64,000 bases of DNA from Planctomycetota bacterium (GTDB taxonomy: Bacteria; Planctomycetota; PUPC01; JACPCR01), in contig JAQBXN010000007.1 of NCBI GenBank assembly GCA_027625095.1, positions 62,001 to 126,000 of the forward strand. The letters run 5' to 3'. Every line of letters starts with the position of its first letter. Position 1 is the stretch's first letter. Below the pieces are notes generated by a model. It was not told the DNA's origin. It did not search any database and worked only from the letters and a program-made list of their open reading frames with translations. The position numbers were made by a program, and so were the translations under genes. Below, piece by piece: positions 6,523 through 57,378 of this stretch.

Positions 6523-6557
6523 ATCAACCATTAACCATCAACCATCAGCCATCCCCT
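6523..6557. repeat. Heptamer repeat (ATCAACC type) between mgsC and mgdB
   Basis: Five heptamers lie in register: ATCAACC (6523), ATTAACC (6530), ATCAACC (6537), ATCAGCC (6544) and ATCCCCT (6551). The array ends 2 nt before the ATG of the next gene. The same CAACCAT core recurs at 17596-17644. It fills the position where mgdA/soxB would be expected in a canonical mgs-mgd operon. Confidence 0.8.
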
Positions 6558-6559
6558 TC

Positions 6560-6874
6560 ATGTCATTCCTCATTCCTTGTCCCAACTGTGGCAAACGAAG
6601 TGTTTACGAGTTTCGATTCGGAAGCGAATACAAGAAACGTCCCTCACCCAATCAGCCGCAGGAGGCATGGACAGAATACTCTTACATGAAACGGAACGAG
6701 GCCGGCCTCCAGAAGGAATGGTGGTTTCATCGTGCCGGCTGCCGCCAGTGGTTTCTCGCCGTGCGGGATACGGTGACCAACGAAGTCCACGAGACGCTTT
6801 TCCCCAGAGACGAATCTCCCAGATCCAACACCCCATCACCCCAACCCTCCCCTTCACGTGACGCACCAGCCTGA
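6560..6874 (+). CDS. mgdB: N-methylglutamate dehydrogenase subunit B / sarcosine oxidase delta subunit (SoxD-like)
   Basis: This is a 104-residue protein of the heterotetrameric sarcosine oxidase delta family. The hallmark is a small zinc-binding domain: C-P-N-C-G near residue 8, W-W-F-H-R near residue 60, and C-R-Q-W-F near residue 67. The chain ends in a proline-rich tail. In the N-methylglutamate pathway this subunit is MgdB, part of MgdABCD, which demethylates N-methylglutamate to glutamate plus formaldehyde or methylene-folate. The frame is open from 6485, but the ATG at 6560 starts the domain and directly follows the heptamer repeat. There is no obvious Shine-Dalgarno; the repeat occupies that space. 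Only 10 nt separate it from mgdC. Confidence 0.85.
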   Translation: MSFLIPCPNCGKRSVYEFRFGSEYKKRPSPNQPQEAWTEYSYMKRNEAGLQKEWWFHRAGCRQWFLAVRDTVTNEVHETLFPRDESPRSNTPSPQPSPSRDAPA

Positions 6875-6884
6875 GCCACAGCGG

Positions 6885-9599
6885 ATGAAGACCTTTTATT
6901 TCGACGGGAAGCCATACACCGCAGAAGCAAACGATACGATAGCGTCCGCGCTCTACCGGTCCGGCGTTCGCGTATTCAGCCGCAGCTTTAAATACCACCG
7001 CCCGCGCGGGCTGCTCTGCGCGGCAGGTAAATGCCCGAACTGCCTGGTTGACGTTGATGGCACACCAAACGTCCGGGCTTGCACCCAGCAGGTTTGCAGC
7101 GGCGATGTCGTCACTCATCAGAATGCAAGCCCGTCCCTCAAACATGACATCCTCTCGGTGGCCGGGCTGGTCGATTGGCTGATGCCCATCGGGTTCTACT
7201 ACAAGACCTTCACGCATCCTGCGGCCTGGAAACTGGTAGAGCCCTGGATACGCCGCGCTGCCGGCCTTGGCGTGGTGAAGCATCCCGTCCTCAAGAATTA
7301 CGACGATGTTGTTGAAGCCACGAAAGGATACCGGTACGAGCATGTAAACCTGCACGCAGAGAAGGCCATCGTTGGCGGCGGACCGGCCGGGATGCTCGAA
7401 GCCTTGAATGCAGCCGGGGAGGGTCTTGATGTGGTCCTGGTGGACGATCAGCCGGAGTTGGGCGGCAATCTCCGTTATCGAAAAAAGGTTCAAAATCCGC
7501 AGGGCAACCCGCTCGATGCTCAAAAACTTAGAGAGCAGATCGCCGCCACTCCGAACATTAGAGTGCTGAACAACACTTCATGCTTTGGCCTCTACGAAGG
7601 AAACCTTCTCGGAATGCTTCATAAGACTCGCAGGGGGGGCGATCATGTCGAACAACTCATCAAGTTACGTGCTGGCCAAATCACCGTGGCTACCGGCTGC
7701 TTCGAAGTTCCACTCGTATTCAAGAACAACGATCTGCCCGGGATTATGCTCAGCACCGCGGTGCAGCGTCTTCTGAATCAGCACCGAATAAAAGTCGCGG
7801 AAAGCGCGGTCGTTGTATCAGCAGAGGAAGAAGGCGGTGAAGTGGCGGCGGACATGAAGCATGCCGGTGTCAGCATCGCTGCGGTCGTACATCCTTCCGA
7901 GGTGGTTGCCGCAAACGGCCGAGGGCAGGTCCGTGCAATTCAAACGTCGGACAAAACTATTCCATGCGAATTGATCGTCATTTGCGGGCTCATGTTGCCC
8001 GAGGCTGGATTACTTTCGCAGGGCGGCGCGGTAGTTGTGTGGGATGCAGATCTTGACAGCTATGCACCGCAGAGCCTTCCTTCTGGTTTGAGCGTGGTCG
8101 GCGATGCGACAGGTAAGGCGTTCACGATCCCGCGGGTAACACACTCTTCGGATTTGCTTCCCAAAGAAGGGCTGGACTCCGGCCGGCCGAAATCCTTTGT
8201 CTGCTATTGCGAAGACGTCACTTCCAAAGATCTCTGCAACGGTATTGAAGAAGGATTCGATCACATCCAGACTCTGAAACGCTACTCGACCGCCACCATG
8301 GGGCCCTGCCAGGGCAAGATGTGTCATCTGGCTACGGCTGCGGTCCGCTCCAAGGTAAAAGGGGAGACGCTTGCCGAGACCGGGCGAACAACATCAAGGC
8401 CGCCCAATCCCTCCGTCAGTCTGGGGGCTCTTGCCGGACGAAAGCTGCACACGCTCAAACGAACTCCTCTCCATCGGAAGCATGAAGAGCATGACGCCGT
8501 GTGGGTGGAACTCGGCCATTGGAAGCGAGCGCGTTATTACAAGGCCGGACCCGATGAAAAGTCTGAGAAGGAATATGTACAAGAGGAATACCGCAATGTC
8601 AGAGATAAGGTCGGCCTGATTGATGTCAGTACGCTTGGCAAACTCGAGGTCAAAGGCGCGGACGCGGGTAGCCTCCTGGACAAAATTTACACCAATAAGC
8701 TCTCAACTCTGCGCGAGGGCCGGATGCGCTACTCGGTCATCTGCGACGACACAGCCACCATCCTTGACGACGGCACGGTCTCGCGCCTGGCCGAAGATCA
8801 TTTTTTCATCACCACCACCACGGGCAACATCGATTTCGTGCAACAGTGGATGGAATGGTGGAAGGCCGGCACTGATTGGTCGGTTCACATCACCAATGTG
8901 ACTGGCGGATTCGGCGCGATAAACGTCGCTGGCCCTCACGCACGGGACGTCCTCTCGCAGCTCACGGACTGCGACTTGAATACGGAAGCGTTCCCCTACA
9001 TGGCATGCAGAGAGGCAGTGGTTGCCGAAATTCCGTGCCGACTTCTGCGAATCGGTTTCACCGGTGAAACAGGATGGGAGATTCACTTCCCTGCCGAATG
9101 CGGTGAACACCTTTGGGATGCCGTCATGCAGTCGGGAGAAGCGTTTGGCATTCGCCCGTTTGGGGTGGAGGCGCAGCGCACACTCCGGCTCGAAAAAATG
9201 CACGTGATCGTTTCCGCGGATACCGACGCCACCAGCAACCCTTACGGCGCAGAACTCGAATTTGCGGTCAAGCTGGACAAGGAAGATTTCATCGGCAAGC
9301 CTGCCTTAATGCGTCTGAACAATTCAGCACTCCACGAAAAACTGATCGGCTTTGAAATGCAGACCTCGACCGTCCCTGGTGAGGGTGCGATGCTCGTGCA
9401 TGAAGGCCGCCCGGCGGGCCGGGTCACCAGTTCCAGACATTCAGCCGTAAAGGGCAAACCGATAGGCCTGGCCTGGATCGCCGCAGAGTTAGCGCAACAA
9501 GGGCGGGCTATCGATATTCAGTCGGACGGTCACACGTTGAAAGCAGTTCTGACAACAGAAGTATTTTATGATCCCGAAGGAAGCAGAGTAAGAACGTAA
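6885..9599 (+). CDS. mgdC: N-methylglutamate dehydrogenase subunit C / sarcosine oxidase alpha subunit (SoxA-like)
   Basis: This is a 904-residue multidomain flavoprotein subunit. An N-terminal ferredoxin-like domain (1-90) has C45, C50, C53 and C66, the C-x4-C-x2-C-x12-C pattern of a [2Fe-2S] cluster. A Rossmann/FAD-NAD domain with G-G-G-P-A-G near residue 166 follows, then a BFD-like cysteine segment (C-Y-C-E-D at 440-444 and G-P-C-Q-G-K-M-C near residue 475). The C-terminal half (from about residue 540) is a GcvT/aminomethyltransferase fold, the folate site that captures formaldehyde in sarcosine oxidase. The GTG at 6858 would overlap mgdB; the ATG at 6885 was preferred because it begins at the domain. 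It pairs with MgdD 60 nt downstream. The flavin subunit that oxidises the substrate (MgdA/SoxB) is not encoded here. Confidence 0.87.
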   Translation: MKTFYFDGKPYTAEANDTIASALYRSGVRVFSRSFKYHRPRGLLCAAGKCPNCLVDVDGTPNVRACTQQVCSGDVVTHQNASPSLKHDILSVAGLVDWLMPIGFYYKTFTHPAAWKLVEPWIRRAAGLGVVKHPVLKNYDDVVEATKGYRYEHVNLHAEKAIVGGGPAGMLEALNAAGEGLDVVLVDDQPELGGNLRYRKKVQNPQGNPLDAQKLREQIAATPNIRVLNNTSCFGLYEGNLLGMLHKTRRGGDHVEQLIKLRAGQITVATGCFEVPLVFKNNDLPGIMLSTAVQRLLNQHRIKVAESAVVVSAEEEGGEVAADMKHAGVSIAAVVHPSEVVAANGRGQVRAIQTSDKTIPCELIVICGLMLPEAGLLSQGGAVVVWDADLDSYAPQSLPSGLSVVGDATGKAFTIPRVTHSSDLLPKEGLDSGRPKSFVCYCEDVTSKDLCNGIEEGFDHIQTLKRYSTATMGPCQGKMCHLATAAVRSKVKGETLAETGRTTSRPPNPSVSLGALAGRKLHTLKRTPLHRKHEEHDAVWVELGHWKRARYYKAGPDEKSEKEYVQEEYRNVRDKVGLIDVSTLGKLEVKGADAGSLLDKIYTNKLSTLREGRMRYSVICDDTATILDDGTVSRLAEDHFFITTTTGNIDFVQQWMEWWKAGTDWSVHITNVTGGFGAINVAGPHARDVLSQLTDCDLNTEAFPYMACREAVVAEIPCRLLRIGFTGETGWEIHFPAECGEHLWDAVMQSGEAFGIRPFGVEAQRTLRLEKMHVIVSADTDATSNPYGAELEFAVKLDKEDFIGKPALMRLNNSALHEKLIGFEMQTSTVPGEGAMLVHEGRPAGRVTSSRHSAVKGKPIGLAWIAAELAQQGRAIDIQSDGHTLKAVLTTEVFYDPEGSRVRT

Positions 9600-9658
9600 A
9601 GTCAGCTCACCACTGGCTCGACCGTTCCCTTTTATCTTGCTCCAGACCCAATCTCGTC

Positions 9659-10288: not shown

Positions 10289-10356
10289 TTTGATCGGGGT
10301 CGGAGTATCGGCTTTACATTCCTGAAATACTTTTGAATTGTCACAGGGATTTAGCC

Positions 10357-12165: not shown

Positions 12166-12345
12166 TCGAAGTGCTATTGCCTCTAATAGTCCGACGATTT
12201 TGCAAAAGCCTCAAAGTTCTCCCTCGTAATCTTTGATCCTCTCGGAGTTACAGAGCGCAGGATAATTTCGCACGGATGAAGAGGACCAGGGAAGAAATAA
12301 GCCACTTCACTGTCCGGTCTTTTGGGTAAGGCTCAATAGCGGGAG

Positions 12346-12565
12346 TTATGAGTAATGAGTAACAAGTAAGCGCGTGCTTAAGGGGCCGATGTTGTTTGAG
12401 TATCGGTTTGTTGGGGAGGGTGAATGGCGAAGCGTGAAATCGGAGTCAGCCGGAATAATTCAGTGTTCATTCGGCTGACACTCTCCTGTGCGGCCCTGTA
12501 TCCCCAATCCTGAATCCGCCATCAACAGAAACCGGCCCTCAAAGATCGCGCTTACTCATTACTCA
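12346..12565. repeat. Heptamer-ended element with terminal inverted repeats
   Basis: The left end (12346-12373) reads TTATGAG, TAATGAG, TAACAAG, TAAGCGC in 7-nt register. The right end (12547-12565) is CGCG followed by two TTACTCA-type heptamers, the reverse complement of the left end with about 19 of 21 positions matching. Inside lies an imperfect hairpin, GTCAGCCG (12445-12452) with CGGCTGAC (12472-12479), and a block AAACCGGCCCTC near 12529 that recurs in the copy at 53482-53629. The stop codon of the GH9 gene (12563-12565 on the minus strand) is the last three bases of a repeat heptamer. The 180 nt between the upstream stop (12165) and the element holds nothing I recognise. Confidence 0.75.
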
Positions 12566-15500
12566 TTCCTTTCCAAGACTCTCCAACGCCTGATGAATGG
12601 TCGCGGCGGCGATGGCGAAATGTGCGGTCTGGGGAAGGTAGTACTCCGTCGGGCCCGGATGAATGGGATAGTGGGGCTGGAGGTAGTACCGCACGTAGCC
12701 CCTGGGGTGGCCGTAAAGGGGCGGGTCGTAGTTGTCGCCTGGTTGCCATTTCACGTTGCCATCACCGGTGTCACGGAATGCCATCGTCGGCACCATGCCG
12801 TCGAAGGTGAAGAGTTTCCGCTCGCTCTTCATCCAATTCTGCAAGAACTCGGGAGATAGAAAGTAAAAAGTCCCGCCAGCTACCACACGCTCGCCAACTC
12901 CGTGGATCATGGAGAGGTCGGACATGTTTTTTCCCAGACACCACTGAAGTTGTCGCTCAGCCAATCTGATGATGGATTCGTCTTTCAGCAGCATCCCAAT
13001 CTCCGCAAGCGAATGCGCCAGCATCGGCCAGTAACCAATCGGCCGCTCTGCAGATGGCATTCGTGCCGGGGTCATCCCTTCCTCAGCAGAAAGCGAACGG
13101 GCCTGCCCCCAGGGATCGATAGCAGATACCTGCCGCACATGAGCCACGAAAGCTTTGAGGCTGGCCACTACCGGATCTCGTTCCGGGTGATGTGGGTATT
13201 CCTTCAGCAAATGACAGAGCGTCCAGACAAAATCCTGCAGGATGTTTCCATCGTGATGTGAGGCCCGGTAGAGTTCATCTGTGGTGCGATACAGCCGCTG
13301 GTTGAGTCCGGTGGCCAGTAGTCTTGCATGGTGATTCATACGTTCGAGGTATTTCGCTTCGCCGGTGAGTCGCGCCAGGTAGATTTCCGCGTAGAGGCCT
13401 TTGGCCGCCATCAGAAACTTTTCTGTGGTCAGCTCACCTGAGGTGCGCTGCCAGAAGCGATTGAATTCGTAATTACGCACGGCTGAGTTAAACAGACGAT
13501 CGCTCAGGACGGGTTCCAAGTCTTTTAGCAGAAGGCTTCCGCGGGCAGCCACACCTGCGGCCTGCGGCAAAGGTCCGACGCCAACCACGTAACGGTCGTT
13601 GCTGTAGAAAGGGATGTTGTCAAGGCCGCGCACCTGCGGCTTTGTGCCGAGATGATAGTTGCCGTCGGGGGCCTGATATTTGGGGAATGCGCGGTGAGCC
13701 CAGAGCAGTTCGTCAAGGCAATCGTTCGAAGTGCGGTCATTAAACGTGGGTCGGATTGTCTCGAGCAATCTGGAGGTGGCGAACAAGACGGAAGGCCAGT
13801 ATTCGACGTGTTTGATGTCGTCGCCGGCGTCGTAATAGCCGCCGAGCATATCTACCCGATCCGGTAAAAATAGACGCTCGTACATGCAGAATCGTTCTTC
13901 ATCGAGACTGGCAAGCATATTCGCGTCCTCGAGTGCCTCGGGCTCGTGAGCGCCGGGGATGGCGCAGTTCATGCGTTTGAAGTGGAGGCCATGCAAGGCG
14001 ATCTTTGAAAGCTTTCGATAGGCATCCCTCGATATGTTGAATGGGCCGGAAGACACCTGTCTGCCACTCTGAGTTGCGACGCACTGGTACCACCCCTCCC
14101 CTTCCTGAGACGTAAAATCAAAGGTGTAATAATACCGCTGGGTCGGCGGGTCATAGCTGTGGTAGCTCGCCTCACCGGCCTTCACGCTCTTGCCCGATGC
14201 GGTCACGAGAGAACACTGAACGGGTGCTTCCTGCAGGCTCTTGATCACAATCTGTTTGTCGCTCTTCGGATGGTAGCCGAGGAAGCTCGCCGTGATCTCA
14301 AGCGATTCTGCTCCATAACCACCGAACTCCGCATCATCGACCCAGACTGTTCCGCTCCGGTTCTCTTCGACTCGGATGGCCAGTGCCGCGAAGACAGCAC
14401 CGAACGGGGGCGTCGTCTTTATGGAGAGTCGCTTCCAATCGGACGTTCCAGTTATTGCGTCCTCACCTTTCGTACTGCCCATGAGCTGCAAACGTGGTGT
14501 ATGCAGTGCACTGGTTTGATCGTGATATTTCATGTCTGAATTCATGTCCGCCGAAAACCAGAGAATCTCGGGGAATACCTTTCCGCCGGCGCCTGCACAC
14601 TTCGCCCAGAAGCTGAATTCCTGCAGCTTGCCGTAATCGATCGAAGGCCAGTTGCAGGTGATACCAAAATCCTTATCCGTCTTTTCAATCTTCATCGAGC
14701 CGGCATGTCTGTAGCCGTCGCTTGCATCGTGCGTGAATTCGCCATCACCGGGGAGAATGTTGTAGAAGCTGAGCGTGTTCGGAAACTCCACCCGATCCGA
14801 AAAAATCTTTGAAAGCGACGGGGCAACCGTAGCGATGACCTGTTTGGGATACGGTTGCGAATTTTTCATTCGAAATTCACGCAATGAATACCACCAGGCC
14901 GGGCGGCCGCGATCGTCTTTGAGACTGAAATGTGGATTGGCTACCAGGTTGTGACCATCGAAGGTATCCGCAGGCGTCCACTCCTTCGGCTCTTCACGCG
15001 GCCTCAGCTCAGGTCTTGGATGGTATGCCTTGTAAGACTTTTTGTTTGCGAGCATGGTGCTCCAGCCGCAGTTTTCCTGATATACGACTTTACCGTTCTG
15101 GTCCTCTATGCGAATGGAGTTCAGGAACGCCTTGAAATTTTTGCCAACGAGTTTGATGTCCACATAGTGATCAAGCGCTTCGAAGTCGCCGTTGGGCACG
15201 AGGTTCCTGCCTGCCGTCAATGCTTCTTCCACATTCTGGCCTTCTGCCAACTCCACAGCCCGAAGGTCATCAATAAATACCGTCGCATCTTCACGCGTAC
15301 CCAAAAAGAAAAAGATGCTCTTTATGGGCTTCGGGGGCGTCCAGACATATTCAAGCGTCTGCCAGCCTTCTTTCGTTGGATTGATACCGAGCTGGCTGTT
15401 GAACGCCTGCCACTCCACCTTGCCGTCCATGTAAGTCACATGTTTGAGCGTGATCCCGAATGTGTATAAGCGTTTCGCATCCGGGACAGCCTTCTCCATC

Positions 15501-17317: not shown

Positions 17318-17640
17318 CTGCGTGACTCAGCACCAAGGGATATGAACTCGCGTTACAGGTAACTGTTCAGAGGGGCAGGCTCTTACTTTTAATCTTCACT
17401 TTTTCGGTTTTCTCAACTGCTCCGGGCCATTCTTTGTGGGAATCTCCATTCCACACCGCAGCCTTCACATCCCACAAGAAAGTGCAGAAGGGGGAGATCA
17501 AAAAGCAAGATTAAGAGAATAAAAATAAGAAAGATTCGGCCCTCGACAGTTAGCTTTATAGCAGAGTCCGACCTGCACATCGCTTGCGAATCTGCCGAAG
17601 ACGAAGAGCCGACAACCGACCATCAACCATCGGCCAATAA
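17318..17640. other. Intergenic region; ends in a heptamer repeat (17596-17644)
   Basis: Bases 17318-17595 show no convincing gene, hairpin-plus-T terminator or promoter. From 17596 a run of heptamers in register begins: CGAAGAC, GAAGAGC, CGACAAC (17610), CGACCAT (17617), CAACCAT (17624), CGGCCAA (17631) and TAACTAC (17638-17644). The last one carries the minus-strand TAG stop of rsgA (17641-17643). The CAACCAT core matches the array at 6523-6557. Confidence 0.65.
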
Positions 17641-18753
17641 CTACTCCACGATGCTCCTGAAACTGCGATACCGCCTTTCCAAGACGGTGCCATTTTCCAC
17701 CGCGTCCTTCACGGCACATTTCGGTTCGGTATCGTGCTCGCAATTCTGGAATCTACATTTGGGGGCAAGCGCCGCGATTTCCGGAAAGGCGGCTTCCACC
17801 TGGCCCAGAATGAGGTCGTATGGGTCGAACGTCCGGACACCGGGTGTATCGACTACGTATGTATCTTTTTCCAAAGACAGAAGACTTGCACTGTGCGTCA
17901 CGTGACGGCCTTTATTGGTCGCCGCGCTGATCTCTCCGGTCTCAAGTTCGAACTCGGGCTTCAGCACATTCAGAATTGAGGATTTGCCTACCCCCGACTG
18001 ACCGGCAAATACGGAGGTCTTTCCTCTCAACCATTCGCGCAGCTCATCCATGCCTTCGCCGGTCGCGGCGCTGAGCCGGATTCCCTGGTAGCCAAGCGAT
18101 GCGTATTCCTCCAGGCAGCGCGGAATCTCCTCGTCCTCATCCTGATCCGATTTGTTGATTGCTACCAGGGGTGTCAATCCCTGGTGATGTGCCACGACAA
18201 GATATCGGTCTATGAGCCCAGGCCAGAGTGGAGGCCCGTGGACAGAGCTCACGATGACCATCAAGTCGACATTCGCCGCAATGACGTGCGCCATGCGATT
18301 GTGGGTGTAGGAAATGCGAGCGAGTTCGTTGGTACGCGGCAACAGTTCGCGAATCAGGCCGGTACCGTCCTTCTGCTGCTCTACCATCACGCGATCACCA
18401 ACAGCGATGACTGAGCGTTGATCGACGGAGATCTCCTTGAACTTGCCACGCAATTGGCAAGTCATGACCTCGCCGCCGAGATCCACTTCGCAGAGCCGGC
18501 TTCGAATCAGTGTGATTCGACCGATTGGAAGTTGGGTATTCTCTGCAATCCCCTCAAGGGCCTGATTTCGTGATATTCCGTCCCGCTGCCGTTCATCCTG
18601 GCCTGGGGGAACGATACGTTCGCTGCCTTCAAATCCCTCTTCTTCTTCCCAATCCCCTTCAACGCCGGTGAGACTACGTTCCGGCCGTGCACGAGCGCGG
18701 GCCTGGCGGTTCTTTCGAAATTGAGTCTTCTTCTTGCCTGGTTTTCGGGCCAT
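17641..18753 (-). CDS. rsgA: Small ribosomal subunit biogenesis GTPase RsgA
   Basis: This is a 370-residue circularly permuted GTPase that acts late in 30S maturation. After a lysine/arginine-rich N-terminal extension (1-60) comes an OB-fold (about 75-150). The permuted G domain has A-I-N-K-S-D (G4) near residue 199, S-A-A-T-G-E-G (G5) near residue 230, A-G-Q-S-G-V-G-K-S-S (Walker A, G1) near residue 252, and D-T-P-G-V-R (G3) near residue 300. A C-terminal zinc motif follows with C-R-F-Q-N-C-x-H and C-A-V-K. All diagnostic elements are present. The basic extension is longer than in Escherichia coli RsgA. The ATG at 18753 has a weak upstream AGG. The stop codon is contained in a heptamer repeat. 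Confidence 0.92.
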   Translation of the reverse strand: MARKPGKKKTQFRKNRQARARARPERSLTGVEGDWEEEEGFEGSERIVPPGQDERQRDGISRNQALEGIAENTQLPIGRITLIRSRLCEVDLGGEVMTCQLRGKFKEISVDQRSVIAVGDRVMVEQQKDGTGLIRELLPRTNELARISYTHNRMAHVIAANVDLMVIVSSVHGPPLWPGLIDRYLVVAHHQGLTPLVAINKSDQDEDEEIPRCLEEYASLGYQGIRLSAATGEGMDELREWLRGKTSVFAGQSGVGKSSILNVLKPEFELETGEISAATNKGRHVTHSASLLSLEKDTYVVDTPGVRTFDPYDLILGQVEAAFPEIAALAPKCRFQNCEHDTEPKCAVKDAVENGTVLERRYRSFRSIVE

Positions 18754-18839
18754 ATTGCCTGCAAAGTCTAAGGTCTAACCCTGACCGCGTTGCGACATGA
18801 GTAGGTGGTCAATCGTTGTGCCGAAGATTTTGACCCGTT

Positions 18840-22296: not shown

Positions 22297-22320
22297 AGAA
22301 TCACAGATCAGACAAACAGA

Positions 22321-22976: not shown

Positions 22977-22977
22977 G

Positions 22978-31482: not shown

Positions 31483-33096
31483 ATGAATCTGCATCGGGCC
31501 TGGTTGCCACACTTAATCCTGTCAATGGCTTTATTTTTCATCAGCGTCCTGTGGGTGCTCAACGCCTGGCCGCTCTCACCCGCGGGCCAGTGGGAGGAGA
31601 TCTACGCGTCGTCGCCCGCGTGGTTTTCCGTGCTGTACATCATCGGGCCCGCAGGGGCAGTCATTGCATTGGCCGCTGCAAATACAAAGCTCGACAGGAC
31701 AACAGCAGGATATCAATGTTTCCGAAAAGCGATGCCGGTCGCCCTGGTTGCAATCTGTTTCTGGTGTCAGAAAAGTGCGGTGCAATTGAGAATGGCTGGA
31801 GTTGAATCCAACTCCTTTTACTTCGCCGCGCCCATCGGCCCGGGGGCCTTTGTCGGGCAGGCGCTGAGTATTGGTGAGCCTCCGGTCGAGACCGGTCTGA
31901 AGTATCTTCAGACCTTCGACACAAACATCGGCGGCAGGCATTGGGGGGAATTTGGTGGCACTCGAGTCATTTCGAATCCACCTGGCGCGACCATGCTGTT
32001 CTACACCTGCCGAAAGCTTTTGGAGGCCTTACCCGTTTTACAGACCTTTTATTCGGGAGAGCCCCTGAAGCCAGCCGCGAGTGCGCTTGAAAAACGAGGT
32101 TATCTTGCACAAGCCCTCACGCAGTTCGGAGCGGATGTCTGCCTGCTTTTGATCGCTCTCAGTATGCCGCCACTTTTCTGGCTCGCGAATGAGCTCTTAC
32201 CTGAAGAGAAGGCAGTCCCCACAGTTCTGGGCGCCATGTTTATTCCGAGTCTCCTGGTCTTTAACTTCACAAAAGATGCGTACCAGGTATCTCTGGCTCT
32301 GTGGTTTTGGTTTTCGTTGCTGAAGGCGATGAAAAGACATTCAGATTTCTGGTCACTGCTGACCGGTGTTTTGTTTTTCATAGGCGTCCAGTTCTCACTT
32401 TCATTTCTCGTAGTGGATGCGACGGGTGGCGTCATATGTCTGCTCTACCTCTGGCATCGAAATGAAAAGCCTTTAATCAAAAAACAGGAATGGCAAGTAG
32501 TTGCCGTGGCAATCATTTCATGCCTTTCTTGCGTGGCGTTGGCGTGGCTCGTACTTGGATACAAGACATGGGCAGGGTTGTGGTCTGCCTATCTGGGGCA
32601 TCAACAGTATCACCGAGAATTTGGCGCTCCTTACGGCACGTGGGTATGGCTCAACCTTATTCATCTGCTTCTTTTTATCGGCGGGCCGGTGGCGGCGTCG
32701 ATTATTTGTGGCGGCTGGAGTCAGATACGCAGAAGGAGGCCAGACCGATCAGGGCCAGACCAATTGAGGGCAGACCAATCTTCTGGATCTGCTGCCGAAA
32801 TCGGCCTTACTCATTACTCATTACTCATTACGGATCCATGTTTTGTCGGATTGGTGGGCACCATTCTGGTACTAAATTTCACCGGAATGAATCTGTCGGA
32901 AGTTCCGAGGCTGTGGTTGTTTTTCATGCCGGTTCTCTATCTCACCTCTGAAAGGGCCGCGGGCATCAAGAGGCCGGCCGGAGTTCAGATAGCTCTGCTG
33001 ATGATGCAGATCGTGCAAGCTGCGGTTTTCACGATCTGTTTCGACCCCCTTGGCGGCTCTCATCGGGCAATCAATGGATTACTGGAAGGATTGTGA
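31483..33096 (+). CDS. Polytopic membrane protein with an in-frame repeat-derived insertion
   Basis: This is a 537-residue integral membrane protein with about 10 hydrophobic helices. Extracytoplasmic loops such as G-G-R-H-W-G-E-F-G-G and the overall layout recall GT-C glycosyltransferases or mannosyltransferases, but no catalytic motif is certain. The window's heptamer repeat sits inside it at 32737-32834 and is translated as a hydrophilic stretch (R-R-R-P-D-R-S-G..., then L-T-H-Y-S-L-L-I-T), flanked on both sides by apparently normal helix sequence. The ATG at 31483 starts the first membrane helix. Its TGA overlaps the ATG of the next gene (TGATG), so the two membrane proteins are probably co-translated and may act together. 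Confidence 0.65.
   Translation: MNLHRAWLPHLILSMALFFISVLWVLNAWPLSPAGQWEEIYASSPAWFSVLYIIGPAGAVIALAAANTKLDRTTAGYQCFRKAMPVALVAICFWCQKSAVQLRMAGVESNSFYFAAPIGPGAFVGQALSIGEPPVETGLKYLQTFDTNIGGRHWGEFGGTRVISNPPGATMLFYTCRKLLEALPVLQTFYSGEPLKPAASALEKRGYLAQALTQFGADVCLLLIALSMPPLFWLANELLPEEKAVPTVLGAMFIPSLLVFNFTKDAYQVSLALWFWFSLLKAMKRHSDFWSLLTGVLFFIGVQFSLSFLVVDATGGVICLLYLWHRNEKPLIKKQEWQVVAVAIISCLSCVALAWLVLGYKTWAGLWSAYLGHQQYHREFGAPYGTWVWLNLIHLLLFIGGPVAASIICGGWSQIRRRRPDRSGPDQLRADQSSGSAAEIGLTHYSLLITDPCFVGLVGTILVLNFTGMNLSEVPRLWLFFMPVLYLTSERAAGIKRPAGVQIALLMMQIVQAAVFTICFDPLGGSHRAINGLLEGL
32737..32834. repeat. Repeat element inserted in frame in a membrane-protein gene
   Basis: A 15-nt unit beginning CAGACC is repeated at 32740, 32755 and 32770 (CAGACCGATC, CAGACCAATT, CAGACCAATC), and the array ends in three TTACTCA heptamers (32807, 32814, 32821) followed by TTACGGA (32828). 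The TTACTCA heptamers are the same as those at 12552, 51740, 53616 and 54735, all of which are intergenic. Here the frame stays open through the whole stretch. Confidence 0.75.
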
Positions 33097-50319: not shown

Positions 50320-50691
50320 TGGAATGGAGTGGTGGAACACAGCGGAGTCTTGGAATGGTGGAAGTCTGGAAGAGTGCTGAGGTGGATGGCGCCGTTCCGT
50401 TTGGTACGGCTATGCACGAACTCAGCCAGCGCGAGCACAATCAGCATGCGGAGGATGACTTGGACTTCCTGGAGTTTTTGCTCGTGAAAGTCTGCATGTC
50501 GTTCGTGTGCTGATTGGAACAGTAGTCCGGCCTTTCACGACAGCCGGGGCGGCTTTCCCAGAATTTGCGGTTGTGGTCATGTACCCTGGAACTTAGCTTA
50601 ATGCTGCCCTCTTCATCGACGCTTCACAAGATCTCCGCACCACGCGAGAGAAGTAACAACTTCAAACTCTGATTCGAACGATCTGCGAACA
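50320..50691. other. Intergenic region with GGAATGG-rich low-complexity sequence
   Basis: This is 372 nt between two plus-strand genes. The first 80 nt after the stop are built from repeated TGGAATGG and GTGGAA motifs, recalling the heptamer arrays elsewhere but without a strict 7-nt period. From about 50400 to 50510 the minus strand has an open stretch (H-E-R-H-A-D-F-H-E-Q-K) that might be an eroded gene fragment; I cannot assign it. No terminator is evident. Confidence 0.4.
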
Positions 50692-51684
50692 ATGACAGAG
50701 CCAGCCATCTCCTGGTCCTTCCCCTACCCCGATCCGTCTGTTGCTCCGGGACTCAATGGCGAGTTGGACGCCCGGCACGCGGGCGCCTGCAGCATCATCG
50801 AGTCAGCCAGCAGATATCACCTCTTTTATTGGGGCATCGGGTCGGACGGTGTGTATCGGATCTGCCGGGCGATGTCATCGGTAGATTCACCCAATGATTG
50901 GCAGCCCGGAGGCAGCATCCTGCAATCCCAACCTGATATTGATTACAACTCCGTCGGCCCAAGCTTTCCGGAGGTCGTCGTGGTGAACGACGATGAGTGG
51001 CTACTCTATTTCGGTGCCTGGGGTGGAAAACGTGACGATGGCAAATTGCCGAACCGAACCGGAGCCGCGGCCTCACACGACGGTGGCAAGACCTGGGAAT
51101 ATGTAAAAGACGAACCAGTCATTTCACTTGACCAGAATTACGATTGCAGCGGCACCGGGAGCGTAAGCGTGCTATATGAGGATGGCCTGTTCAGAATGTA
51201 TTACACCGCTATCGGGGAATACTTTGAGAAACCCGTTGGGGTACAAACGGGGCACGGGGACTTCATCCCCCGTATCGGGATCGGTTACGCTGAATCTGAA
51301 AATGGAATCGAGTGGCACAAACCTTATGACGAGTTGATGGTCGCGCCGCGTGGATTCGGCACTGAGCCCTACGAATACATTTCATCAAAACCATGTGTCA
51401 TCCGCGAAGAGTCAGGCTATCGAATGTGGCTTTCGACATTCGGGACAGCCTACCGCATTCGAAGCCTCGTAAGCACTGATGGGCTCCACTGGAACTGGAA
51501 CCCAAGCGGGATCGATGGCGAGTTCGGCATAGGCGCAAAAGGGGCATTTGATGACCACCAGCGTTCCTATGCCTGCGTGATCAGGCATCAGGAAGAATAT
51601 AGATGCTGGTACACGGGGAACGGATTTGGCAGATCCGGGATGGGCTATGCAGTCGGGAGGGGGAAGAAGGACCTTAGACCTTAG
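50692..51684 (+). CDS. Five-bladed beta-propeller glycosidase-like protein
   Basis: This is a 330-residue protein without a signal peptide. Repeated units with S-x-D-G-x-x-W (A-A-S-H-D-G-G-K-T-W, Y-A-E-S-E-N-G-I-E-W, V-S-T-D-G-L-H-W) and F-R-M-Y-Y-T / Y-R-M-W-L-S strands are typical of GH43, GH32, GH68 and GH130-like five-bladed propellers. D31 or E27 near the first strand and the E-P-Y-E-Y motif near residue 225 are candidates for catalytic acids. The family and substrate are open. The C-terminal K-K-D-L-R-P and the TAG stop are coded by the CCTTAGA-type heptamer repeat. It is cytoplasmic if the start is right, which points to oligosaccharide processing. Confidence 0.65.
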   Translation: MTEPAISWSFPYPDPSVAPGLNGELDARHAGACSIIESASRYHLFYWGIGSDGVYRICRAMSSVDSPNDWQPGGSILQSQPDIDYNSVGPSFPEVVVVNDDEWLLYFGAWGGKRDDGKLPNRTGAAASHDGGKTWEYVKDEPVISLDQNYDCSGTGSVSVLYEDGLFRMYYTAIGEYFEKPVGVQTGHGDFIPRIGIGYAESENGIEWHKPYDELMVAPRGFGTEPYEYISSKPCVIREESGYRMWLSTFGTAYRIRSLVSTDGLHWNWNPSGIDGEFGIGAKGAFDDHQRSYACVIRHQEEYRCWYTGNGFGRSGMGYAVGRGKKDLRP

Positions 51685-51760
51685 ACCGAAGAAATCGGGC
51701 AAAGACTGTTCTTCTGTCTCCTATCTAAGGTATAAGGTCTTACTCATTACTCATTACGTC
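51670..51760. repeat. Heptamer mosaic with inverted arms upstream of fhcA
   Basis: GACCTTA occurs twice (51670, 51677), followed by GACCGAA (51684). From 51705 a second register runs ACTGTTC, TTCTGTC, TCCTATC, then TAAGGTA and TAAGGTC (51726, 51733), two TTACTCA units (51740, 51747) and TTACGTC (51754). GACCTTA is the reverse complement of TAAGGTC, so the two arms can form a hairpin. The upstream gene's stop codon (51682-51684) lies in the left arm. Confidence 0.75.
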
Positions 51761-51845
51761 CGATAGCGCATCCCAAACCGATTCGCAATAATGCCGCCCC
51801 TCATTTGCAGGACATCCTGGTCATTCCATACAGGCAAACCATTTC

Positions 51846-53498
51846 ATGTCCCTGACTAAGATTTCGGGCGGTACAATTTACGATCCACTGAATCAGGTAG
51901 ACGGCATCGTGGGTGATATCTGGGTGCGCGATGGCAAGGTAATTTCCGCACCGAGTGAAGGCACAAAAGCAGACAAAGTAATTGATGCCAATGGCCTGGT
52001 CGTCATGCCTGGCGGCGTCGATATGCACTGCCACATCGCCGGCCCCAAGGTGAATGTAGCCCGCAAGCTCCGTCCGGAAGACAAGCGTCTTGCAGACAAG
52101 GTGATGCGCACACCGAACACCCGCTCAGGCACGATGGGGAGTGTCCCGAGTACTTTCGCCACGGGCTACAAATACGCCGGGCTTGGTTACACCACCGCAT
52201 TCGATGCAGCCATCCCGCCGCTTGGGGCGCGGCACGCACACGAAGAGTTTCATGATACGCCGGTCATCGACAAAGGTTTTTTTGTCCTGATGGGCAATAA
52301 CCACTTTGTGATGCAGCAAATCAAAGAGAACGAACCCGAAAAGCTCAAGGGCTACGTCGCTTGGCTGCTGGCCGCAGCCAAAGGCTACGCCGTCAAAGCA
52401 GTCAATCCTGGGGGGGTTGAGGAATGGAAGAGTGGCGGCCCGAAGATCACCAACATTGACGACACGGTCGATTACTTCGAAGTCACTCCTCGCAAGATTC
52501 TCTGTGCGCTGGCGGATGCGGCGACCCAGCTCAAGCTTCCGCATTCTCTGCACGTCCACTGCAACAATCTTGGCCTTCCTGGCAACTGGACTACGACGCT
52601 CGACACGATGCAGGCACTCGAGGGCCGCAAAGCACATCTCACTCACATCCAGTTCCACAGTTACGCGGGCGGAGATGCGGACGAAGAAACCTTCGGTTCA
52701 CGCGTTCCCAAACTCGTCGAATATGTAAACGCTCACCCAAATCTAACGCTGGACGTCGGGCAGGTGGTGTTCGGTCAGACGACTTCGATGACGGGCGACG
52801 GCCCCCTCGGGTACTACCTCCACCAGGTGACCGGTCGTAAATGGTTCAGCTCGGATACTGAACAGGAGTCTGGCTGCGGAATCGTACCCATCGAATACAA
52901 GAACAAGAGCTTCATTCACGCGATGCAGTGGGCCATTGGGCTCGAATGGTTTCTCCTCGCCGACGATCCCTGGCAGGTGGTCATGAGCACCGACCATCCC
53001 AATGGTGGCTCGTTCATGGCTTATCCCCAGATCATTCACCTGCTCATGGACAGCGGTTACCGTAAGGACATGTGCAAGACTATTCACAAAAAAGTCCTTG
53101 AGCGCTCAATGCTCGGAAAGATCAACCGGGAGTACTCGCTATACGAAATTGCCATCATTACCCGAGCCGGCCCGGCAAAAATTCTGGGTCTCAAAGATAA
53201 AGGGCATCTCGGCCCCGGCGCCGATGCAGACATCACGATTTACACCCCGCAGAAGGACATCACCGAGATGTTTTCCATTCCGCGTGTTGTTATCAAGAGC
53301 GGAGAAGTGCTCGTTGAAGAGGGACACATCCGACAGGATTTCACCGGTAAGACATTTTACGTTTCCCCGAGCTACGATGAAGGACTGATCACAGACATCA
53401 GAGAATGGTTCGAGAGGACGTATACGATTCAGTTCGAGAATTACCCGGTGGACGAACATTACATGCCTAAGAGGGAATGCGTAATGAGCAATGAGTAA
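51846..53498 (+). CDS. fhcA: Formyltransferase/hydrolase complex subunit A (formylmethanofuran dehydrogenase subunit A-like)
   Basis: This is a 550-residue zinc amidohydrolase-fold protein matching FhcA/FwdA. G-V-D-M-H-C-H-I-A-G with H61 and H63 forms the first metal-binding motif, and N-V-A-R-K-L-R-P-E-D-K follows as in this family. H-V-H-C-N-N-L near residue 239 and S-T-D-H-P-N-G-G near residue 381 hold further metal ligands (H and D). In methylotrophs FhcABCD hydrolyses formyl-methanofuran to formate after transfer from formyl-H4MPT, finishing formaldehyde oxidation. It is first of three fhc genes here (A, D, C). Its last residues (V-M-S-N-E) and stop lie in a TAATGAG repeat. The FhcB subunit is not encoded adjacently. 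Confidence 0.88.
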   Translation: MSLTKISGGTIYDPLNQVDGIVGDIWVRDGKVISAPSEGTKADKVIDANGLVVMPGGVDMHCHIAGPKVNVARKLRPEDKRLADKVMRTPNTRSGTMGSVPSTFATGYKYAGLGYTTAFDAAIPPLGARHAHEEFHDTPVIDKGFFVLMGNNHFVMQQIKENEPEKLKGYVAWLLAAAKGYAVKAVNPGGVEEWKSGGPKITNIDDTVDYFEVTPRKILCALADAATQLKLPHSLHVHCNNLGLPGNWTTTLDTMQALEGRKAHLTHIQFHSYAGGDADEETFGSRVPKLVEYVNAHPNLTLDVGQVVFGQTTSMTGDGPLGYYLHQVTGRKWFSSDTEQESGCGIVPIEYKNKSFIHAMQWAIGLEWFLLADDPWQVVMSTDHPNGGSFMAYPQIIHLLMDSGYRKDMCKTIHKKVLERSMLGKINREYSLYEIAIITRAGPAKILGLKDKGHLGPGADADITIYTPQKDITEMFSIPRVVIKSGEVLVEEGHIRQDFTGKTFYVSPSYDEGLITDIREWFERTYTIQFENYPVDEHYMPKRECVMSNE

Positions 53499-53629
53499 GA
53501 AAGACGGAAGACGGAAGACGGAAGACGGAAGAGTCGAGCGCCAACCAGGAACTAAGAACATCAATCGCCAACCGGTATCCAGATAAAACCGGCCCTCCAA
53601 GCCAGCGCTTACGTATTACTCATTACTCA
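53482..53629. repeat. Heptamer mosaic between fhcA and fhcD (inverted relative to the copy at 54517)
   Basis: From 53482 the units are TAATGAG, CAATGAG, TAAGAAA, four tandem GACGGAA (53503-53530), then GAGTCGA, GCGCCAA, CCAGGAA, CTAAGAA, CATCAAT and CGCCAAC in unbroken 7-nt phase. The right end (53609-53629) is TTACGTA then two TTACTCA. The block from about 53532 to 53611 is the reverse complement, with few differences, of 54539-54618. It starts inside the end of fhcA and finishes 10 nt before the fhcD ATG. Confidence 0.85.
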
Positions 53630-53639
53630 TAAGATTCCC

Positions 53640-54533
53640 ATGACCATCAACGGCGTCGAAATCCAGGATACCTACGCGGAAGCCTTCGGCATGACCGGGG
53701 CCCGGTGTATCGTTACCGCTGCGAACGAGCGATGGGCAAAGATCGCCGGCGAGACGGCCAGCGGCTATGCGACTTCCGTTATCTCATGCGACGCGGAAGT
53801 CGGGATCGAGTCCGTGCTGTCTGCAGAGGAGACGCCGGACAATCGACCCGGCGTGAGCCTGTTGTTTTTTGCCTTCAATACCAAGTCCCTGGAGAAGGCC
53901 GTTGCTAACCGCATCGGGCAGTGCATCATGACCTGCCCGACCACCGCGTGCTACGACGGACTGCCCGGCTCAGAAAACACCATCGCCGTGGGTGGAGCCC
54001 TGCGTTATTTCGGTGACGGATTCCAATTCAGCAAACTAATTGCGGGGCGTCGCTACTGGCGCCTGCCGGTAATGGATGGTGAATTCACGTGCGAGGAAAG
54101 AGTCGGCACGGCTAAAGGCGTCGCCGGAGGAAACTTCCTGATTCTCGGTGAGACTCAGGCAGCAGCTCTAACCGCGGCGGAAAAGGCCGTCGAAGCAATG
54201 AACAACGTCAGTGGCATAATCATGCCATTCCCGGGCGGCATCGTCCGTAGCGGCAGTAAGGTTGGCAGCAAATACAAGAAGCTCGTCGCCAGCACGAATG
54301 ACGCCTATTGCCCTACCCTCCGTGGCCTGGTGCCAACCGAATTGCCTGAGGGGGTGAATGCTGTCTACGAAATCGTCATCGACGGCCTGACCCTTGGAGC
54401 TGTTGAAGAAGCCACGCGTGTCGGCATCCGTGCCGCCTGCACTGAAGGCGTAGTCAGGATTTCGGCAGGCAACTACGGCGGCAAGCTCGGGAAATATTTG
54501 ATAAAGCTAAGGCACGTAATGAGTAAAGAGTAA
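53640..54533 (+). CDS. fhcD: Formylmethanofuran-tetrahydromethanopterin formyltransferase
   Basis: This is a 297-residue protein matching Ftr/FhcD. I-N-G-V-E-I-Q-D-T-Y-A-E-A-F-G-M at residues 3-18 is the diagnostic N-terminus, P-T-T-A-C-Y-D-G-L near residue 100 and M-P-F-P-G-G-I-V-R-S-G near residue 199 are conserved, and N-D-A-Y-C-P-T-L-R near residue 221 is near the active site. It transfers the formyl group between the methanopterin carrier and a methanofuran analogue in the cytoplasm. The length is normal. The gene is flanked by two inverted copies of the heptamer element, and its terminal residues V-M-S-K-E and stop lie in the downstream copy. Coding runs in the same direction as fhcA and fhcC. 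Confidence 0.93.
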   Translation: MTINGVEIQDTYAEAFGMTGARCIVTAANERWAKIAGETASGYATSVISCDAEVGIESVLSAEETPDNRPGVSLLFFAFNTKSLEKAVANRIGQCIMTCPTTACYDGLPGSENTIAVGGALRYFGDGFQFSKLIAGRRYWRLPVMDGEFTCEERVGTAKGVAGGNFLILGETQAAALTAAEKAVEAMNNVSGIIMPFPGGIVRSGSKVGSKYKKLVASTNDAYCPTLRGLVPTELPEGVNAVYEIVIDGLTLGAVEEATRVGIRAACTEGVVRISAGNYGGKLGKYLIKLRHVMSKE

Positions 54534-54748
54534 AGAATAAGCGCTGGCTGGGAGGGGCGGTTTTATCTGGATACCGGTTGGCGATTGATGTTCTTAGTTC
54601 TTGGTTCTTGGTTGGCTCTTCTGTCTTCCGTCTTCCGTCTTCCGTCTTCCGTCTTCCGTCTTCCGTCTTCCGTCTTCCGTCTTCCGTCTTCCGTCTGCGG
54701 TCTTCTGTCTGTGGTCTACGGTCTACGGTCTTTCTTACTCATTACTCA
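54517..54748. repeat. Long heptamer mosaic between fhcD and fhcC
   Basis: The left end has TAATGAG (54517), TAAAGAG, TAAAGAA and TAAGCGC (54538). From 54588 the register is continuous for 161 nt: ATGTTCT, TAGTTCT, TGGTTCT, TGGTTGG, CTCTTCT, ten perfect GTCTTCC units (54623-54692), then GTCTGCG, GTCTTCT, GTCTGTG, two GTCTACG, GTCTTTC and finally two TTACTCA (54735-54748). The block 54539-54618 is the inverse of part of the copy at 53482-53629, where the GACGGAA (reverse of TTCCGTC) array has four units instead of ten. fhcC starts 20 nt later. Confidence 0.9.
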
Positions 54749-54768
54749 TCAAGTTCACCCTCACGACC

Positions 54769-55605
54769 ATGTCATTAACCCTCAAAACCAAACCCATCGA
54801 GCAAATCCCAATCGAGGCCGATTGCATCACGCCTGACAAGTTGCGTGGACTCTCGGTTTCGGAAATCGAAAAGTTACAGGTGCTTCAGGGAAACCAGAAT
54901 CTGCCGTTTGCAGAGTTCTTCGATGTTTCGGGTGACCCTTCCGACGGTGACATCGTCATCGAAGGCAATTGCGTCAAGGTGAAACTCATCGGCACCGGAA
55001 TGTCCGAAGGCAGCATCACCGTCCATGGCAACGTTGGCATGCATACCGGCGCAGAAATGAGTGGTGGCCGATTGGAGGTCTTCGGGAATGCCACGGATTG
55101 GGTCGGTGCAGAAATGAAGGGCGGGCATATACACATCCACGGCGATGCGGGACACCTTGTGGGCGGCACTTATCGCGGCGGTAATCGGGGAATGACCGGC
55201 GGCGTCATTCTTATCGATGGCAATGCGAAGAACGAAGTTGGATGCGTCATGCGAAGGGGTCTTATCGTTATCGGTGGAGATGCCGGTGATTTCGCAGGAG
55301 CCGACATGCTGGCCGGCAGCATTCTTGTTTTCGGCCTGCCAGGTATCCGGTCAGGCGCGGGTATGAAACGCGGCACCATCGCGGTTTTCGGCGAAGAGCC
55401 GGAGGATCCAAAACGCACCTTGGAGTTGCTGCCCACCTTTTTCTATGACTGCGATTACGAGCCGCCATTCCTGACTCTCTATCTGAACCAACTCGCAGGG
55501 TGGGGATTCAAGTTCCCTGACCACGTCCGCTCCGGCAACTTCCGACGCTACAGCGGGGACCTTGTGGAAATGGGCAAAGGGGAGATTTTGGTCTGGCAGG
55601 CATGA
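54769..55605 (+). CDS. fhcC: Formyltransferase/hydrolase complex subunit C (formylmethanofuran dehydrogenase subunit C-like)
   Basis: This is a 278-residue beta-helix protein of the GXGXG fold, like the glutamate synthase C-terminal domain. Repeated G-A-E-M-x-G-G-x-x and G-x-x-x-G-M-x-x-G units (G-A-E-M-S-G-G, G-A-E-M-K-G-G, G-M-T-G-G, G-A-D-M-L-A-G, G-A-G-M-K-R-G) form the turns, typical of FhcC/FwdC, a structural subunit of the formyltransferase/hydrolase complex. The frame continues upstream through the heptamer repeat to 54601, but that part is repeat translation; the ATG at 54769 starts the protein. The stop lies 24 nt before the convergent ilvD gene ends. Confidence 0.88.
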   Translation: MSLTLKTKPIEQIPIEADCITPDKLRGLSVSEIEKLQVLQGNQNLPFAEFFDVSGDPSDGDIVIEGNCVKVKLIGTGMSEGSITVHGNVGMHTGAEMSGGRLEVFGNATDWVGAEMKGGHIHIHGDAGHLVGGTYRGGNRGMTGGVILIDGNAKNEVGCVMRRGLIVIGGDAGDFAGADMLAGSILVFGLPGIRSGAGMKRGTIAVFGEEPEDPKRTLELLPTFFYDCDYEPPFLTLYLNQLAGWGFKFPDHVRSGNFRRYSGDLVEMGKGEILVWQA

Positions 55606-55629
55606 GTTCTCCTTCCTCTGAGAACCCAC

Positions 55630-57309
55630 TCACTCGTCCGTAACGCAGCCCTCAGACGCGGACTTCACAGTCTTGATGTACTTGTAAAGCGTGCCACGGG
55701 TAGCCTTGAATGGTGGCGCAGTCCAGCCGGAACGGCGTTTGTCCATCTCTTCGTCGCTGACGTCTACATCGAGGCGATTGCTGTTCGCGTCGATAGTCAC
55801 CCTGTCGCCCGTTTGGAGCAACGCGATAGGCCCACCTGTCTGGGCCTCGGGTGTGATGTGGCCAACGATGAAACCGTGCGAGCCCCCTGAGAAGCGGCCG
55901 TCCGTAAGCAGTGCGACGTCTTTGCCCAGGCCTGCACCCACAATGGCGGAGGTTGGCGTCAACATTTCCGGCATGCCGGGGCCACCCTGCGGGCCTTCGT
56001 AACGAATCACGATCACGTCCCCCTTGACGATTTCTTCTCGCTCTAATGCGGCGAGCATGTCCTCTTCAGAATCGTAGACCTTGGCCGGGCCTGTGAAAAC
56101 GAGGCCCTCCTTACCGGTGATCTTGGCGACTGCTCCCTCAGGCGCCAGATTGCCTCTGAGAATCTGGATATGACCGGTGGCCTTTATGGGATTGGAGATC
56201 GGATGAATCACGTCTTGCCCTTCGTCTAGATCCGGAAGATTGGCAACATTCTCGGCAAGGGTCTGCCCAGTGACCGTGAGGCAATCACCGGTCATGAGAC
56301 CTTCGGCCAGCAGCATCTTGATGAGGCCAGGTGTCCCTCCGACGTTGTGCATGTCCTCCTGAACGTATGTTCCACTAGGCTTGAGATCGGCCAGGAATGG
56401 CACCCGATCGCTGACTGTTTGAAAGTCATCAATAGTGAGCGGCACGTCGACCGAACGGGCCATGGCGATCAGGTGGAGAACGGCGTTCGTTGAACCTCCA
56501 AGAGCCATCACGACGACCATCGCATTTTCAAAAGCTTCCCGGGTCATGATATCACGTGGCTTGATGTCCTTTTCCAGCAGATTGCGGATGGCCTCTCCAG
56601 ACTTGAGGCATTCCTCCAATTTGGCCGGATCCTCGGCCGGGATTGACGAGCTGTAGGGAAGCGACATACCAAGGGCCTCGATGGCGCTGGCCATGGTGTT
56701 GGCAGTGTACATACCGCCGCAGGCGCCAGCGCCCGGGCAGCTCTTCTTTACTATTTCTACTCGCGTTTCCTCATCGATGGCACCTGCGAGGAACTGGCCA
56801 TAGCTCTGAAACGCAGAAACGATATCGAGTTTTTCATTCTTACTGCTGCAGCCGGGCTTGATGGTGCCGCCATAGACCATAAGAGAAGGCCGGTTCAGCC
56901 GGCCCATGGCAATGACACATCCGGGCATGTTCTTATCGCAGCCGGGCAATGAGATGTTCGCGTCATACCACTGCCCACCCATGACCGTTTCGATGGAATC
57001 GGCAATAAGGTCACGAGATTGCAGGGAATAGCTCATCCCGTCCGTGCCCATGGAAATTCCGTCGCTCACGCCAATCGTGTTGAATCGCATCCCGACGAGC
57101 CCTGCAGCCGTGACGCCTTCCTTGACCTTTTCGGCAAGGTGGAGCAGGTGCATGTTACAGGTGTTGCCTTCATACCAGACACTGGAAATGCCAACCTGCG
57201 GTTTCATCATGTCCTCTTCGGTCATGCCTGTGCCATAAAGCATGGCCTGCGAAGCGCCTTGGGACTTTACCTGGGTGACTCTCGAGCTGAATTTGTTGAG
57301 TGCTGGCAT
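55630..57309 (-). CDS. ilvD: Dihydroxy-acid dehydratase
   Basis: This is a 559-residue IlvD/Edd-family enzyme of branched-chain amino acid synthesis, which dehydrates 2,3-dihydroxy-isovalerate or 3-methylvalerate. C-D-K-N-M-P-G-C near residue 123 and [10 protein letters not shown] near residue 193 supply iron-sulfur cysteines, and G-R-F-S-G-G-S-H-G near residue 472 is a typical family loop. The order and length match IlvD rather than Edd. The heptamer array at 57317-57337 begins 7 nt upstream of the ATG, in the place of a Shine-Dalgarno. It is convergent with fhcC, with 24 nt between the ends. Confidence 0.93.
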
Positions 57310-57316
57310 GGGTGCG

Positions 57317-57378
57317 TAATGAGTAACAAGTAATGAGTTAAAATCTGAATCTTCATGATCTGTGATCGGCGATTCAGC
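57317..57378. repeat. Heptamer mosaic directly upstream of ilvD
   Basis: TAATGAG (57317), TAACAAG (57324) and TAATGAG (57331) are followed in register by TTAAAAT, CTGAATC, TTCATGA, TCTGTGA, TCGGCGA and TTCAGCG (57373). The first three match the left end at 12353-12366 (TAATGAG, TAACAAG). It lies in the leader of ilvD, so on the minus strand it would be transcribed as CTCATTA units. Confidence 0.65.

Follow-up and report, generated by a model that had tools for sequence, protein, structure and literature searches.

The window that we analyzed is a 64,000-nucleotide stretch of DNA, positions 62001-126000 of contig C74, from an 8.95-Mb planctomycete genome in 262 contigs. It includes a formyl-transfer operon whose three genes have Pfam support: fhcA, of the amidohydrolase family (51846-53498), ftr, with FTR (53640-54533), and fhcC, with GXGXG (54769-55605); the fhc names are the presumed ones for such an operon. 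The best relatives of the Ftr protein are planctomycetes. This operon carries the most striking of the tandem heptamer arrays in the window, which are as follows:

6520-6556, plus strand: array of CATCAAC/CATTAAC heptads, a lag-7 segment about 14 nt past the stop codon of the 5176-6507 gene, which has a glutamate synthase domain (Pfam)
12343-12419, plus strand: left arm of an inverted-end element, with TAATGAG heptads, a GTAAGCGCG stem and the core GGGGCCGATG-TTGTTTGAG-TATCGG (model R1 match at 12360-12419, 53 bits)
12503-12569, minus strand: right arm of the same element, an inverted core copy that ends in CTTACTCATTACTCATT (model R1 match at 12503-12561)
17607-17634, minus strand: weak heptad run TGGCCGA TGGTTGA TGGTCGG TTGTCGG (lag-7 score 11), separated by a few nt from the stop of RsgA, a minus-strand gene (17641-18753; Pfam)
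32806-32831, plus strand: array of 3.6 TTACTCA units that ends just before an ATG (weak R1 match at 32776-32823)
51671-51760, plus strand: AGACCTT heptads on the left and TCTNNNN/CATTACT heptads on the right (lag-7 segments), between an upstream ORF with weak GH43 similarity and fhcA (Pfam of neighbours)
53479-53538, plus strand: left arm, GTAATGAGCAATGAGTAA including the fhcA stop codon (protein tail VMSNE), followed by 4.6 AAGACGG units
53559-53630, minus strand: right arm, core hairpin GGAGGGCCGGTTTTATCTGGATACCGG and CTCATTA heptads, about 10 nt upstream of the ftr ATG at 53640 (the best R1 match, 53559-53618, 62.5 bits)
54515-54590, plus strand: left arm, GTAATGAGTAAAGAGTAA including the ftr stop codon (protein tail VMSKE), with the core hairpin (R1 match at 54531-54590)
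54590-54749, plus strand: mosaic array of about 23 heptads in one register, GTTCTTG, CTTCCGT and CTACGGT, then ACTCATT (lag-7 score 99; TRF), stopping 19 nt short of the fhcC ATG (54769)
57315-57339, minus strand: CTCATTAC heptads just upstream of an ilvD-type gene (55630-57309, minus strand; Pfam)

A first-pass annotation had reported tandem heptamers at eight or more places in the window, and they are present at the places named; TRF calls CATCAAC at 6522-6553, TTACTCA at 32807-32831, AAGACGG at 53501-53532 and TCTTCCG at 54617-54710. The unbroken mosaic of about 23 heptads reported at 54588-54748 was recovered as the single lag-7 segment at 54590-54749. Two loci that had been treated as separate cases, 53482-53629 and 54517-54748, proved to be one element in opposite orientations, flanking ftr as inverted copies with 88% identity over 130 bp (blastn). 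At 32737-32834 the TTACTCA array accounts for 32806-32831, and part of 32737-32780 is a 15-nt repeat instead. This repeat, GGCCAGACCRATYRG, lies at 32738-32780 and adjoins the TTACTCA heptads; the repeats together (32738-32831) fall inside an ORF without a Pfam match (31525-33096), which may be read-through, given that none of the three forward frames of a CTCATTA repeat contains a stop. The element at 12343-12569 is predicted to fold as a single hairpin of about -93 kcal/mol. For annotation it matters that proteins flanking the arrays of the operon take their stop codons and short tails (VMSNE, VMSKE) from the heptads. No Rfam family matched at gathering score in the window, and a known RNA family was rejected on that ground.

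Spacer statistics were taken over 1.83 Mb (20% of the genome), and pattern and model searches were run over the whole of it. Within the 1.83 Mb, lag-7 runs are present in 88 of 1032 gene spacers, or about one gene gap in 12. For comparison with shuffled spacers we used a 1.03-Mb subset of 587 spacers and counted a lag-7 segment at a score of at least 10; 52 of the 587 contained such a segment, against 1.4 in shuffles, so that the spacer period on which the first-pass annotation depended is well above the shuffled level. The only other enriched non-triplet period in these 587 spacers was lag 8 (15 spacers versus 0.8 shuffled), and every lag not divisible by 3, 7 or 8 stayed near the shuffled level. 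Exact doublets were found in 132 spacers for heptamers, 81 for hexamers, 30 for octamers and 7 for nonamers. The heptamer doublets represent 57 distinct families in this one genome, the commonest of which, with rotations and strands merged, are AATGAGT, AATCCTG, AACCATC, AACCATT and AATACGT. The units recur elsewhere in the genome (ATTACTCATTACTCAT at 55 places) and lie mostly between genes, 27 of 33 arrays being intergenic.

Across the whole window the lag-7 autocorrelation is barely raised (0.2511), the signal being confined to spacers. General spacer composition is ruled out as its source: masked spacers (0.2575) have no lag-7 excess, and the shuffles gave only 1.4 segments. In the 35-nt flanks of 109 arrays, lag-7 matches amount to 0.315, whereas other lags give 0.253-0.278 (5443 comparisons); the 7-nt phase weakens by degrees across the flanks, and the mosaics are therefore genuine. 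An octad (period-8) version with the same inverted mosaic layout, of the TGGANNNN type, is also present, with 38 octads at C144:149307. Further octamer arrays of this type lie at C144:17235, C10:43238, C222:117497 and C189:89379.

We asked how far the arrays are organized as inverted arms. An inverted 9-mer is common to the left and right halves of its own spacer in 34 of the 88 array spacers, versus 11.7 (maximum 20) with mates permuted, and array-free spacers show some excess of inverted k-mers too. Mean fold z-scores are -1.87 for array spacers and -0.75 for other spacers. Several elements are single-armed, and in these no hairpin can form. The continuous 7-nt register that had been described holds within an arm and breaks down between inverted arms: the distances separating 27 TAATGAG/CTCATTA pairs fall in all modulo-7 classes, which rules out a register common to both arms. 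Heptad ends had been said to mark most loci and to be inverted in pairs; inverted TAATGAG/CTCATTA ends are found at three of the eight (12346, 53482 and 54517), with one end only at 32737, 51670 and 57317 and neither at 6523 and 17596. The proposed full unit, TAATGAG through variable heptads to TTACTCA, holds for a subset, where it forms the outer end of a palindromic core that is dispersed and contains a covarying hairpin.

Behind its TAATGAG end, this core subfamily has GTAAG, a stretch N12 of about 12 nt, and then a small hairpin, GGAGGGCCGATG-loop-CATCGG (for example, at 12360-12419 and 53559-53618 in the window). In 22 arms the core helix is paired in 81% of cells, compared with 22-50% when slid, and it shows 12 double changes, a number reached in 0 of 500 shuffles. 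A covariance model identified at least 38 core arms in the whole genome, which is a lower bound because 150 of about 2400 candidates were scored, and no core in the eight other class members. Core arms that lie close together face inwards (8 loci). The arms average 59% identity per column, and most heptad and octad arrays are without the core.

The dispersed core and the inward-facing arm pairs at 8 loci, together with the 88% identical inverted pair flanking ftr, would be explained by a MITE- or REPIN-like mobile element that is non-autonomous, uses the heptads as its terminal repeats and is moved in trans by a transposase such as RAYT, for which the genome has ten Y1_Tnp matches. We nonetheless judge this unlikely. 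Terminal inverted repeats are present (12343-12569, 53479-53630 and others), as is a conserved hairpin with compensatory changes of the REPIN/RAYT kind, but near-identical copies are absent: the arms have only the 59% identity noted above, interiors are mostly unrelated between elements, and most arrays have no core. By blastn a homogeneous MITE family is ruled out, since similarity extending past the heptads was confined to the 53482/54517 pair and to partial matches with two further elements. One of the ten RAYT matches (C189:63820) is within about 1.3 kb of an array. The published REP/REPIN and RAYT systems (PMC3116915, PMC3733652), as far as the available text of those reports goes, are likewise dispersed, extragenic and palindromic with inverted pairs, and their RAYT genes are represented in this genome, whereas the copies here are far more divergent, have heptad tails and lack clear RAYT linkage. 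The earlier suggestion of a small mobile element gains partial support from the dispersal (at least 38 arms), the inverted pair and the spacers that are longer than their orthologues (below), but the copies differ from one another more than those of a typical MITE or REPIN would. The ten Y1_Tnp (RAYT-type) matches lie on C238, C189, C11, C130, C233, C195, C29 and C153; two are adjacent at C233:54221-55018, in a single open frame.

To place these arrays phylogenetically we took advantage of nine genomes of the class, including the source, one of which (G005) is in the same family. Unit sequences proved to be lineage-specific. ATTACTCATTACTCAT, with its 55 sites here, has a single occurrence in a sample of 293 further genomes of the phylum, and ATTACTC has 55 sites here and 0 in G005; reciprocally, GGTGTCAGGGTTCAGG has 55 sites in G005 and 1 here (control 0). 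For ATTACTC the reversed-pattern control was uninformative, since reading this word backwards gives a rotated form of it; the searches with GGTGTCAGGGTTCAGG and AACCATC used non-symmetric words, with a control of 0. G005 has the same array architecture built of other, GC-richer words. AACCATC arrays number 23 here and 6 in G005, and are absent from the rest of the class.

Three orthologous co-directional junctions are 235, 220 and 433 bp long here, and their counterparts in G005 measure 9, 71 and 162 bp; protein identity is low (23-28%) for the second of them (220 versus 71 bp). In G005 (L171) the ftr stop codon overlaps the fhcC start. These shorter junctions are a point in favour of a mobile element. 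Presence and absence can also be seen at one NC10 junction, fhcA-ftr, where a different heptad hairpin (GTTTCGG and variants) is found in L105 and L119, nothing in L107 and L108 and another palindrome in L101, with alignable flanks; between L105/L119 and L107/L108, loss fits the pattern as well as gain. Heptad-phased palindromes that differ in presence between species were seen in NC10 bacteria (Methylomirabilota) at both fhcA-ftr and ftr-fhcC junctions: at 10912-10974 of L101, at fhcA-ftr in L105 and at 9955-9984 of L119. In another planctomycete (L081, 10898-10990), the ftr stop codon is followed directly by a terminator-like hairpin that has AATGACC heptads on one side and their inverse on the other. 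A set of 80 loci from many lineages yielded 29 lag-7 segments, of which 18 are intergenic; at lags not divisible by 7 the intergenic count is 0-6.

The arrays are not placed evenly with respect to genes. With gene starts taken from a simple purpose-written caller, 28 co-directional arrays lie within 25 nt of the next start, against 18.5 expected, and there is no clustering at the previous stop (24 versus 23.7 expected). Start-proximal arrays are C-rich and G-poor on the sense strand in 48 of 53 cases, versus a background of 64% (p 2e-5). One family that recurs in many copies (TTACTC/TTACGT) contributes part of this polarity, which without that family is 25 of 29 (25:4, p 0.011). Near stops the polarity is balanced (25:20), so an intrinsic palindrome polarity, with the 5' arm always G-rich, is unsupported. 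A Shine-Dalgarno (SD) core is found in 3 of 53 array-led leaders versus 235 of 993 others, a loss that is partly built in because an array that fills the leader leaves no room for an SD sequence. Of 99 arrays in co-directional spacers, 15 contain the upstream stop codon, including those of fhcA and ftr. In the small sample from G005 we saw neither start-side clustering nor clear polarity. The polarity at starts, absent at stops, is our strongest hint of function, in the form of G-poor leaders that replace the SD sequence.

One way to read a position just before start codons is that the arrays bind an RNA- or single-stranded-DNA-binding protein with a footprint of about 7 nt, such as a cold-shock protein or S1, one heptad being one site. 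The window has GTCTNNN heptads, which are similar to GUCUUUA, a ligand of CspB (PMC7704496), and Csp, S1 or Csr proteins were proposed by MacGregor for the TAACTGA repeats (PMC4679880). We regard this as very unlikely for these arrays, given that the units of one genome have no common motif (TAATGAG, GATTCAG, GATGGTT, octads), that the same-family relative uses GC-richer words, and that the G-rich arms near stops would need another reader.

A neutral origin has to be taken more seriously, because the SD loss comes partly from arrays filling leaders and because many arrays lie away from starts. Here slipped-strand mispairing and quasi-palindrome template switching in unconstrained DNA would yield functionless by-products that gene ends merely bound. 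The many unrelated units in one genome (57 heptamer families with exact doublets), the 25:20 balance near stops and the prevalence of period 7 in the intergenic DNA of other lineages (18 of 29 segments) would all fit, and the available text of Rehm 2015 (PMC4692102) describes heptameric repeats as over-represented in many bacteria. The start-side polarity (48 of 53) and clustering (28 versus 18.5), however, are unexpected without selection, and the covarying core hairpin with its dispersed arms, at least 38 of them, needs more than slippage. On this balance we consider a purely neutral origin possible but on the unlikely side.

We tentatively favour, at somewhat short of an even chance, an explanation in which the arrays are palindromic junction inserts whose arms, made of phased heptads or less often octads, grow by 7-nt slippage, and which are retained at starts as unstructured non-SD leaders and, where two-armed, couple translation. 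Replication slippage in 7-nt steps would lengthen one arm, and template switching within the hairpin would copy blocks to the other, so that each genome would drift to its own vocabulary. Slippage would thus explain tandem growth in fixed steps, and template switching the inverted copies and the dialects. The core subfamily, whose dispersal is observed, may additionally have spread as a non-autonomous repeat. Arrays that landed before a start codon would survive for the most part in the G-poor orientation, since they would then serve as an unstructured non-SD leader. The anatomy of two-armed elements suggests that the next gene's leader is held in the stem; where the upstream stop codon sits in the 5' arm, the terminating ribosome would open the hairpin and free that leader, which is classical translational coupling. 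This explanation offers no reason for the figure 7. Of the possibilities first suggested, both intercistronic mRNA structure and slippage during replication are compatible with the data, and we find the earlier observation partly confirmed and its interpretation partly supported.

How do these arrays compare with known repeats? Heptameric repeats are over-represented in bacteria according to the available text of Rehm 2015 (PMC4692102), which cites a 2007 survey, and the arrays belong with the short tandem heptanucleotide repeats (STRR, or heptameric SSR) in their tandem over-representation, intergenic place and lineage-specific units. Closest in position are the TAACTGA direct repeats of marine Beggiatoaceae (MacGregor 2015, PMC4679880), which are tandem, mostly intergenic and found before start codons largely without an SD sequence, just as the heptamers here cluster upstream of starts that lack one. 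In that system related heptamers interrupt 36 of about 170 sets, one unit dominates, neighbours are rarely repeated and only one inverted case is known; the genome studied here has many different units, arms in inverted orientation, arrays of octads and a core in dispersed copies, and TAACTGA doublets number 0 in 1.83 Mb. Closest in structure is the P6b stem of the Nostoc trnL intron (Kaasalainen 2015, PMC4476775), in which degenerate heptads (TDNGATT, NNTGAGT) occupy both stem arms, as in a subset here, length changes by whole heptads and the unit class is replaced between lineages. P6b, however, is a single site in a tRNA-Leu group I intron, whereas the arrays here involve dozens of protein-gene junctions.

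The first-pass comparison with cyanobacterial heptanucleotide repeats is apt in kind, as both are short, tandem, intergenic and lineage-specific. In the available text of PMC4692102, the cyanobacterial and Xanthomonas/Nostoc GGGNATC repeats are intergenic heptamers in which some positions are fixed and others variable, and they form heterogeneous arrays and sometimes inverted pairs; their units form G-quadruplexes, and that text describes neither a palindromic core nor start polarity. The 1.83 Mb contain no doublet of any unit that we tested from cyanobacteria, Xanthomonas or Beggiatoaceae, with GGGGATT, GGGGACT and GGGAATC each at 0. A search of the available literature for heptameric repeats in planctomycetes found nothing, which is a weak negative. 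Heptameric repeats are thus known, and their mosaic, palindromic, lineage-dialect form appears to be undescribed.

Bacterial heptameric repeats have been noted for decades, with the number 7 and the place beside genes left unexplained. A bolder idea, which we think rather unlikely, is that an unnamed and widespread process working in 7-nt (sometimes 8-nt) steps builds palindromic spacers in many phyla, each with its own word sets, which are then recruited as non-SD leaders and coupling hairpins. If true, such a process would explain the dominance of heptamers among bacterial repeats. This one genome provides dozens of independent arrays of shared architecture and different sequences, and is accompanied by a relative with another vocabulary and by junctions with and without the insert; origin (slippage, template switching, mobility) and role (leader, coupling hairpin) are therefore directly testable.

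The genome also contains a second dispersed repeat, TATCGCAGCCGTAAGGCCGCAACC..GTGCTTCC..AACTGTAACC, bounded by GTAATAC, at C165:42705, C189:64872, C222:168758 and C61:58792, and in L009 and L026. G005 has a CGGGCGAAGCCCGCAACCC element around its heptads that is analogous to this GTAATAC-bounded repeat.
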